Under the pieces are notes generated by a model that saw nothing but the letters and a program-made list of their open reading frames with translations, did not search any database and was not told where the DNA came from. Positions 15,413 to 18,728 of a DNA stretch of 64,000 nucleotides are shown here, piece after piece (within the stretch, counting starts at the first letter, position 1; every line of letters begins with the position of its first letter). Position numbers and translations under genes: made by a program. Origin of the DNA: Cuniculiplasma divulgatum (lineage in GTDB: Archaea; Thermoplasmatota; Thermoplasmata; Thermoplasmatales; Thermoplasmataceae); assembly GCA_031200235.1 (NCBI GenBank), contig CP133595.1, positions 620,001-684,000 on the forward strand, in the 5' to 3' direction.

Positions 15413-15871
15413 ATGGCGATCACAAATGCCGATTATGGAACCATAAGGCAGTTCGACGGAAGAGATCTGGACAGGATTCTTGAGATTGCCTCAGCTTCTC
15501 TTTCCGAATATTACTCAGAGGCACTCATAATGGATCTTTATGATGAATGGCCCCAGGCTTTCCTTGTGTACACCATGGGGCGCGAGATACAGGGATTCAT
15601 AATCGGATCAAGATTTTCACCCACAGAAGCAAGGGTACTCATACTGGCGGTTGACCAGCAGTTCAGGAACATGGGCATAGGTGGAGCCCTCATGCAGTCC
15701 TTCCTTGCGTTGTGCAGCAGGAACAACTTCATGAGCGTAAAACTGGAAGTTAGAACGGATAATGATAATGCAATAAATTTTTACAGAAAATTGGGGTTTG
15801 TTGTGACATCAAGACTGAAGGCCTATTACAGCGATTCGTCTGATGCCTACACTATGTGGAAGATACTTTAG
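15413..15871 (+). CDS. GNAT-family N-acetyltransferase, RimI-like
   Basis: This 152-residue acetyltransferase has the acetyl-CoA-binding segment VDQQFRNMGIGGALMQ (R/Q-x-x-G-x-G/A pattern) near residue 85 and the ending NAINFYRKLGFVV, which is typical of RimI/ArdI-type protein N-terminal acetyltransferases. It may acetylate protein N-termini, as in other archaea, but the substrate cannot be read from the sequence. The stop overlaps the convergent SAM synthetase gene by four bases. Confidence 0.85.
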   Translation: MAITNADYGTIRQFDGRDLDRILEIASASLSEYYSEALIMDLYDEWPQAFLVYTMGREIQGFIIGSRFSPTEARVLILAVDQQFRNMGIGGALMQSFLALCSRNNFMSVKLEVRTDNDNAINFYRKLGFVVTSRLKAYYSDSSDAYTMWKIL

Positions 15872-17073
15872 AAAACCGAGACTTTTCCCTCAACAAAGAG
15901 GTTGGTCAGATTCCCTATGTTGGCAAGGCGATCGTCTGCCAGGTTCCTTATGTTGTTCTTTATCTTGGACTGGTCAGCGTTGTCCGCGTATATGACCTGG
16001 ATGCTTGCAACATGCGGATCGTCTATGCGTCTTCCGATCTGCGACACAATCCTGACATGAACCTCCTGGACATCCCCGGGGTGTTCCTTTACAATGTCCT
16101 GGGCAATCATGTTTGACAGCACATTATACAGTTTGCCCACATGCGTGACGGGGTTCTTGCCTGCTGCCGCTTCCATGCTCATTGGCCTGTATGGAGTTAT
16201 GAGACCGGAAACCCTGTTCCCCCTTCCAACAGAACCATCATCCCCGTTTTCCATTGACATGCCAGTCACTGTGAGGTAGTGCCCTGTGCCCTTTCCATTC
16301 TCATCGTCAGCTGTGTTAACAAATATCTTTACTGGTTCATTGGTGACCTTAGCTGCATTCTTGGCTATGAGTTCCTTCAGCTCGCTCTTGACGGAAAAGT
16401 ACTCGGGATCATCCTTTACGAACTTATCCACATAAGCTGCTGCAACGGTCAGGTTTATTGTTCCGCCCTGCCTGAATCCCATGACCTTTATGTCGTAGCC
16501 TATGGCTGGCAGCTTTGACTTCAGTGCCGGTCCGTTAAGGTATCTCTCCGTCTCGTACACAAGCCTCTCTGTATCAGTATATGGCGCAAAACCCACTCCA
16601 AATGATGTGTCGTTTGCCCTCAGCTTTGATGTATCATATATCTCAGTAAGGTCAACTGAACCGTGCCCAATCCTGCAGTCGATCATGACATCAGAATCCA
16701 GGTCAAGATGCTTGAAGTTTGAGTTCAGGAATTCCCTGGTCGCCTTTATTGCTATTGACTTGAATGGTATCCTGTCATTTCCGACCTTGGTTGTTGCCCT
16801 ACCGCTGAGAAGTATGTAAGTCGGTTCCAGGACCTTCCCGCCACCGAACTGGGGAGCAGACTGCCCTCCTACAACCTCAACCTGATCCGTATTGTGGTGC
16901 AGAATCTTGCCATATTCCTTGAGGTAATACCTGCTCAATGCCCTGCTTACGGACTCGGCAATCCCGTCAGAAACGCTGTCCGGATGCCCGATACCCTTCC
17001 TTTCAACAATCTCGACTTCTCTCTTTGCTGTTGGTGTCTGTATGATGCCTTCGACTGCAATGTTTCTTTCCAT
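15868..17073 (-). CDS. mat: S-adenosylmethionine synthetase, archaeal type
   Basis: This 401-residue protein belongs to the archaeal MAT family, which differs strongly from bacterial MetK. Landmarks are the N-terminal [30 protein letters not shown] and [11 protein letters not shown]. It makes S-adenosylmethionine from methionine and ATP, here feeding the radical SAM protein and the methyltransferase among others. A TATA box GTTTATAAATC (17098-17107 on the minus strand) lies 26 bases before the ATG at 17073, so the mRNA is leaderless. Repeats in the divergent interval to purH may regulate one or both genes. Confidence 0.95.
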
Positions 17074-17136
17074 TATTTTGCCTCTTTTTTCAGGGGATTT
17101 ATAAACTGAAATAAAGGTTTTGTATTTCTGGCTGCC

Positions 17137-17176
17137 AAATTACCACGCCAAAAGTAAAATTACCACTGGTAATTTT
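17137..17176. promoter_or_regulatory. Candidate operator: palindrome plus direct repeat between mat and purH
   Basis: A perfect inverted repeat with ten-base arms (AAAATTACCA at 17156-17165 and TGGTAATTTT at 17167-17176) surrounds a single C at 17166. A second copy of its left half, AAATTACCAC, lies at 17137-17146, exactly 20 bases before the same sequence at 17157-17166. That spacing is two helical turns, so bound proteins would face the same side. The palindrome is about 15-20 bases upstream of the weak purH TATA region. The direct copy is about 30 bases upstream of the mat TATA box. The regulator is unknown. Confidence 0.6.
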
Positions 17177-17225
17177 TGCGGCCACTGTAAAATGAATTAA
17201 GGAAGTTGTTCATTACTCCTGCATC

Positions 17226-18728
17226 ATGAAGATTCTGGCCAGTGTTCATAACAAGGATAGGCTCGATTCATTCCTTCACGGGATCTCGAAGTATGTAGAT
17301 GAAATCTATGCTTCAGGGGGCACATACAGGTTCCTGACTGATTCAGGATTTACGTGCAGGAACATATCAACCCTTACGGGCTTTGAGGAACTGCTGCATG
17401 GAAGGGTGAAGACGCTTCATCCAGCCATTTTTGCCGGCATTCTCTCCAAGCGCGATCCCGAGAGCAGCAGGCAGTTGCAGGAGCGTGGATTTCCCGAATT
17501 TGACATGGTCATCGTAAATCTTTACCCCTTTGATGAGGCAGCTAAGACCCATAAGCTTGAGGATATGATAGAGAATATTGACATAGGAGGTTTATCTCTC
17601 CTTCGTGCTGCGGCAAAGAACTACGAACATGTCACTGTCCTTTCTGATCCCTCTCAGTACGATTCCGTTGCCACAGAGCTTCAGCAGAACGGCAAGATTT
17701 CAGGCGAGACCAGGAAGAGGCTGGCCCTTAAGGCGTTTTCCAGATCAGCCGACTATGACATTTCCATTTACGGATCAATGAACGGTGAACTTTTCGGCAC
17801 AGCTCCGCCTTCAATGTACCTGAAGGGTACCAGAGGACGTGAACTTCGCTATGGCGAAAACCCTGACCAGAAGGGGTATGTGTATTCCGACGGAACGCAG
17901 TATGGGATTGCCAATGCCACTCAGCTTCAGGGAAAGGAGCTTTCATACAACAATATCCTGGATGCGGATTCAGCCTTTGAGACTGCACTTGAGTTCACAG
18001 ATCCTGTGGCCGTTGTACTGAAGCATAACACCCCGTGTGGCGTTTCATCTGCCGCAGACATAAATACTGCCCTCAAGAGAGCCATTGCAGCTGATCAGGA
18101 ATCTGCATACGGATCGGTCATTGCCATTAACAGGAAGTTCGACTCCGGATCCCTTGAAGCAATCTCGAAGCTTTTCGTGGAGGTCATCATCGCTCCGGAA
18201 TATGATCCTGATGCACTGGAAGGCCTGAAAAAGAAGAAGAATCTCCGTGTGCTCAGGGTGCCGCTGGTACCTGACCAGAATCCCCGGGTCAGATCCATAT
18301 CAAACGGGTTCCTTGTGCAGAGCAGGCTGTCAACCCAATATGAGAAGCTTGATCAGAAGACCTCAACCGCAGCAAGCAGGGAACAGCTCAGAGACCTGGA
18401 ATTTGCGTGGAAGGTTGTTGCACACAGTCGGAGCAATGCCATAGTCCTTGCAAAGGACATGACCACCACCGGTATAGGCGCCGGACAGACCTCAAGGATA
18501 GAGGCCCTGAAGGTTGCTGTTGAGAGGGCTGGTGAAAAGTCCAGAGGATCAGTGCTTGCCTCTGACGCATTCTTCCCGTTCTATGATAATGTTGAACTGG
18601 CAGGAAAGTCAGGAATTGCGGCAATCATCCAGCCAGGCGGTTCCATAAGAGATGATGAGGTGGTTGCCAGGGCTGAGGAACTTGATATTCCTATGTATTT
18701 CACCGGTAAGAGAGTGTTCCTTCACTGA
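17226..18728 (+). CDS. purH: Bifunctional AICAR formyltransferase/IMP cyclohydrolase
   Basis: The 500-residue protein covers both domains. The IMP cyclohydrolase part (about 1-190) has YASGGTYRFL, GRVKTLHPAI and VNLYPF. The transformylase part has LRYGENPDQKG and the catalytic LKHNTPCG, ending with IIQPGGSIRDDEV. It catalyses the last two steps to IMP using 10-formyl-tetrahydrofolate. Many archaea use PurP and PurO instead, so this bacterial-type enzyme is notable and implies a folate-like one-carbon carrier. The cyclodeaminase and formiminotransferase genes near 27-28 kb could supply that carrier. Upstream repeats suggest regulated transcription. Confidence 0.94.
   Translation: MKILASVHNKDRLDSFLHGISKYVDEIYASGGTYRFLTDSGFTCRNISTLTGFEELLHGRVKTLHPAIFAGILSKRDPESSRQLQERGFPEFDMVIVNLYPFDEAAKTHKLEDMIENIDIGGLSLLRAAAKNYEHVTVLSDPSQYDSVATELQQNGKISGETRKRLALKAFSRSADYDISIYGSMNGELFGTAPPSMYLKGTRGRELRYGENPDQKGYVYSDGTQYGIANATQLQGKELSYNNILDADSAFETALEFTDPVAVVLKHNTPCGVSSAADINTALKRAIAADQESAYGSVIAINRKFDSGSLEAISKLFVEVIIAPEYDPDALEGLKKKKNLRVLRVPLVPDQNPRVRSISNGFLVQSRLSTQYEKLDQKTSTAASREQLRDLEFAWKVVAHSRSNAIVLAKDMTTTGIGAGQTSRIEALKVAVERAGEKSRGSVLASDAFFPFYDNVELAGKSGIAAIIQPGGSIRDDEVVARAEELDIPMYFTGKRVFLH

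Follow-up and report, generated by a model that had tools for sequence, protein, structure and literature searches.

We found here that a 21-base palindrome and an accompanying half-site between mat and a purH-like gene of Cuniculiplasma divulgatum form a conserved arrangement upstream of mat, and that the palindrome recurs before other methionine and S-adenosylmethionine (SAM) genes. The reading that we favour, at a probability of roughly 80%, is that the element serves as an operator of a Thermoplasmatales methionine/SAM regulon that includes mat, and that it would be bound by an autoregulated XRE-CBS protein which probably senses a SAM-like compound and most likely represses its targets. 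The features on which this reading draws are as follows, with coordinates given in the window (the whole stretch of 64,000 nucleotides that was analysed).

17156-17176, no strand: AAAATTACCACTGGTAATTTT, candidate 21-bp palindromic operator, with the core ATTAC-N5-GTAAT at 17159-17173; conserved upstream of mat
17137-17146, minus strand: AAATTACCAC, mat-proximal half-site, separated by 20 bp from the palindrome arm that it matches; GTAAT in relatives
17137-17143: the part of this half-site that reads GTAATTT on the mat strand
17108-17123, minus strand: ACAAAACCTTTATTTC, inferred BRE/TATA of the mat promoter; ACAAAAC-N-TTTA is conserved in nearly all relatives
17081-17084, minus strand: GAGG, Shine-Dalgarno-like sequence of mat; conserved in most close relatives
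15868-17073, minus strand: mat, archaeal S-adenosylmethionine synthetase, the presumed regulated gene
17226-18728, plus strand: purH-like gene, divergent neighbour of mat and not a conserved target

The element upstream of mat

A preliminary description of this DNA had reported a 21-base palindrome and a 10-base direct copy of its half, spaced by 20 bases, between the divergent mat and purH genes, and a check of the sequence bears out both. AAAATTACCACTGGTAATTTT is a perfect palindrome save for its unpaired centre base, and AAATTACCAC at 17137-17146 recurs at 17157-17166, within the left half of the palindrome and exactly 20 bases away, so that 17137-17176 spans the two. The inferred BRE/TATA of mat, ACAAAACCTTTATTTC, sits 13 bp beyond the GTAATTT half-site in the window.

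The evidence for the element lies in the locations of the sites and their conservation, not in how often the motif occurs in one genome. The 15-base core has a single match in the window at up to two mismatches, against 0.24 expected, and the 2.0 Mb single-contig genome holds two exact copies of ATTAC-N5-GTAAT where about 2.4 would be expected from base composition; the count in this one genome therefore proves nothing. Motif counts there are no higher than in controls, most of its one-mismatch sites lie inside genes and resemble chance, and a search for the composite with two mismatches allowed returned mostly noise, at the level of the controls.

Conservation is a different matter. We compared the regions upstream of mat in 48 genomes of the same family (Thermoplasma, Ferroplasma, Acidiplasma, Cuniculiplasma, E-plasma and uncultured lineages). 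On the mat strand these relatives carry ATTAC-N5-GTAAT, then a further GTAAT and then, about 15 bp on, ACAAAAC-N-TTTA, the putative BRE/TATA of the mat promoter. An exact palindrome lies within 220 bp upstream of mat in 38 of the 48 genomes, and one with at most one mismatch in 44, as against a background of no exact matches and 25 at up to one mismatch in 454,239 positions at the same loci. The proximal half-site extends to a near-invariant GTAATTT; it stands 20 bp from the corresponding palindrome arm in 42/48 genomes and 21 bp in 6/48, and its distance to ACAAAAC-N-TTTA is 14-16 bp in 46/48. Spacing of 20 or 21 bp is what cooperative binding on one face of the DNA would predict. We considered and rejected the idea that the third half-site is part of another complete dimer site; the left (opposite) arm that this would need is not conserved. 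Two further genomes, of one genus (L438 and L439), have the palindrome at mat and lack the third half-site, the mat element of Ferroplasma is degenerate with two direct GTAAT copies left, and no recognisable site was seen at mat in f5 and f3, which are sister families (for f3, in the more distant mat genes that were read). Across 400 genomes of the class, the exact composite occurs at 30 places in 29 genomes, all of this family, and all 30 are at mat (26 confirmed as facing it by script and the other four by reading); a mirrored control has none. By this pattern, the palindrome with its phased half-site is a conserved candidate switch before mat in Thermoplasma-like archaea.

The random expectation of about 2.4 exact cores per genome speaks for mere chance, which together with a terminator or an RNA element makes up an alternative account of the palindrome that we regard as next to inconceivable. 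Neither chance nor an RNA function sits well with a position and spacing kept across 48 relatives or with the empty mirrored control. That the palindrome precedes the inferred promoters of mat and purH alike further disfavours a terminator or RNA element, as does Rfam, where window positions 16900-17400 gave no match up to E = 1 to any family, SAM and SAH riboswitches included. As a separate observation, one relative encodes a second SAM synthetase (G012:C1:1102947-1104125, 44% identical).

Target genes and the place of purH

For twenty relatives we examined the exact palindromes in their genomic surroundings and identified the neighbouring genes by Pfam/NCBIfam. In ten of these genomes, 18/35 exact sites stand before mat, asd, aspartokinase, homoserine kinase, metF-metE, metE, mtnB or the XRE-CBS gene; in the ten others, where the palindrome was extended by TT, the same holds for 8/12 sites. 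Roughly half of the exact hits in these unbiased lists fall inside genes or beside unrelated genes. The palindrome alone precedes asd, lysC, thrB(-metB), metF-metE, metE, mtnB and the gene for an XRE-type helix-turn-helix (HTH) plus CBS protein, and the homoserine kinase target is accompanied by a gene for a Cys/Met PLP enzyme. A common motif upstream of several methionine/SAM genes, conserved at the same genes across related genomes, is what a methionine/SAM regulon should display. The preliminary description had named, as the outcome that would speak against it, a motif absent from other purine or methionine genes and lacking conservation; what we observe is recurrence before methionine/SAM genes and conservation in relatives.

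Exact copies of the palindrome occur just twice in the window's genome, once at mat and once upstream of asd. In four of the five species of this genus (L353-L357), asd is preceded by two palindromes 168-169 bp apart, the proximal one having decayed to two mismatches in the window's genome (L355, G000:C1:1588170 region). This spacing corresponds to about 16 helical turns, and the double palindrome could therefore allow looping of the DNA. A second copy of asd in two genomes (L376 and L377) has a TTTAC-N5-GTAAT site, together with a mat-like ACAAAACCAATTTATAAA promoter in L377 and a similar one in L376. In the ten genomes read with the TT-extended palindrome, an amino-acid permease gene (L251, G027:C1:227944), possibly encoding a methionine transporter, is preceded by a pair of palindromes with about 100 bp between them. 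Further exact sites were seen before a glutamate-synthase-like gene (L338), before an HpcH-type aldolase-like gene (L349), in the interval that separates a DtxR-like gene from a rhodanese-like one (L386) and before an MFS transporter gene (L250).

The preliminary description had proposed a dedicated regulator of purine or methionine metabolism. A regulator, and its connection to methionine, are upheld by the recurrence of the motif at methionine/SAM genes; the purine part is not, as no site precedes purH where that gene lies elsewhere. The palindrome does stand about 52 bp upstream of purH in the window, which is the natural reason to suspect that it regulates purH or purine synthesis. Six genomes in which purH is not divergently beside mat speak against this, having no site upstream of purH and retaining the element at mat (in degenerate form in Ferroplasma), and since the element stays with mat in this way purH is not a conserved target. 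The distance from palindrome to purH also varies from 36 to 83 bp where that to the mat promoter is fixed, and the other targets of the palindrome include no recognised purine gene. On the six genomes and the variable distance we rejected purine regulation, which we consider very improbable.

The XRE-CBS protein as candidate regulator

The protein that probably binds the palindrome has about 190 residues and combines an XRE-type HTH (Pfam HTH_3) with CBS domains. It is present throughout the family save in a few incomplete genomes; in the window's genome its gene (G000:C1:725999-726562) is unlinked to mat. Among its own promoters, 17/30 have a site at up to one mismatch within 130 bp of the start, where background would give about 0.2. 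The promoter in the window's own genome has a two-mismatch site only, and five orthologues have no site at up to two mismatches within 130 bp. Three features looked for in a cognate factor were found for this protein, namely the HTH_3 plus CBS architecture, an operator at its own promoter and linkage to a target. MJ0100 of Methanocaldococcus, which the CBS part matches with E about 4e-8, binds SAM/MTA, and an adenosyl ligand is therefore plausible; on the strength of this domain type, the probable ligand of the CBS module is SAM or an adenosyl metabolite related to it.

It is also conceivable that the same methionine regulon is controlled by another DNA-binding protein, for example of the Lrp or DtxR type, with the XRE-CBS gene as a mere target. 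Archaeal Lrp-like proteins would equally suit 15-bp palindromes with phased copies, and in G021 a DtxR/MntR-like gene and a rhodanese gene flank one exact site. Set against this, the XRE-CBS gene is the only regulator gene with recurrent palindrome sites, it adjoins mat in a distant lineage and its recognition helix changes along with the operator (see below), all of which leads us to judge control by another protein improbable.

Under the mechanism that we propose, the XRE-CBS protein would bind the palindrome as a dimer, a second dimer or a cooperative contact would occupy the third half-site two turns away at mat, and the protein would regulate its own gene. Its CBS module would sense SAM or a related adenosyl metabolite, and the regulon would be shut when SAM or methionine is plentiful, an action like that of MetJ by an unrelated protein. 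Repression at high SAM/methionine is the most likely sign of regulation. The same operator and regulon could also work with the opposite sign, the protein then being an activator that is recruited at low SAM to the DNA upstream of the mat BRE. At mat the gap between the nearest half-site and the BRE downstream of it is about 15 bp, and some metE and homoserine kinase sites lie just upstream of an A-rich BRE/TATA-like sequence, positions that would suit an activator. However, at asd some 50 bp separate the proximal site from the start codon, and this site follows a TATA-like sequence and lies over the probable start site (as far as the inferred promoter goes), and several XRE-CBS sites are only 17-31 bp from the start codon, again by inferred promoter positions. 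The asd site and some of the XRE-CBS sites thus appear placed for a repressor to block the start, whereas those at mat would suit either sign; the placement is an uncertain guide, and we regard activation as possible, though clearly less probable than repression.

Known systems and distant lineages

Phage-type XRE/Cro-C1 repressors, such as those of 434 and lambda, likewise have short half-sites separated by about one helical turn and neighbouring sites in phase with each other. They have Pfam HTH_3 in common with the protein described here, which differs in its attached CBS sensor domains and in its association with metabolic genes. MJ0100 is not known as a methionine regulator; its CBS module is alike by sequence, but the matched chains (PDB 3kpb, 3kpc and 3kpd) are without an XRE domain. 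The regulon of MetJ, the SAM-responsive repressor of gammaproteobacteria, has a near-identical target set (PMC4239095), comprising metK, metE, metF, metB, asd, methionine salvage and the regulator's own gene, with repeated half-sites at its operators (PMC4239095). MetJ nevertheless has another protein fold and a tandem AGACGTCT operator, where here there is an archaeal XRE-HTH plus CBS protein; a MetJ-type operator was rejected for the window, as its motif is ATTAC-N5-GTAAT and not tandem AGACGTCT MET boxes. SahR and SamR of Proteobacteria control metK, metF and metE through DNA palindromes, the SahR gene being itself a target and the SamR gene a neighbour of target genes (PMC4239095). Both resemble the present system in these respects and differ from it in not being XRE-CBS proteins and in their half-sites and geometry. 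No description of an archaeal methionine regulator of the XRE-CBS type was found in the open literature that we searched. Archaeal methionine/SAM control is undescribed in this literature, and a candidate regulator, operator and set of targets can now be named in several lineages.

In a distant lineage listed as "Euryarchaeota archaeon" (L226-L235), the XRE-CBS gene divergently adjoins mat in 10/10 genomes. The shared region contains ATTCC-N4-GGAAT about 140-180 bp upstream of mat, nine times exactly and once with one mismatch, against no exact match in 88,131 background positions. The f5 genomes have a diverged XRE-CBS protein and carry ATTCC-N4-(G/A/T)GAAT at its gene in seven of eight cases; f3 gave no full XRE-CBS match. 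In f4, four of the five genomes have the palindrome at mat, intact or with one mismatch. In Thermococcus JdFR-02, exact ATAAC-N5-GTTAT occurs twice in 11.2 kb and only at mat and XRE-CBS (L240:4899 and L240:9193); the mat copy lies 102 bp ahead of that gene and the other at the XRE-CBS start.

These differences run alongside those in the recognition helix. SYIARLE, the helix of the window's family and, with small variation, of f4, pairs with ATTAC-N5-GTAAT, and STIVKIE of the distant lineage and S(A/L)I(T/N/A)KIE of f5 pair with ATTCC-N4-(G/A/T)GAAT. Helix and operator thus seem to change together, which is suggestive and not proof because only a handful of clades is involved. It is about an even question whether a SAM-sensing XRE-CBS family, controlling mat as well as its own gene in Thermoplasmata and Thermococci alike, forms a widespread archaeal counterpart of MetJ whose operators have diverged into three types (ATTAC-N5-GTAAT, ATTCC-N4-GGAAT and ATAAC-N5-GTTAT) in step with the recognition helix. 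The paired drift of operator and helix offers a natural series for reading the DNA specificity of XRE proteins. An exact ATAAC-N5-GTTAT was also seen before mat in the archaeal contig B1_G16 (L239:2854).
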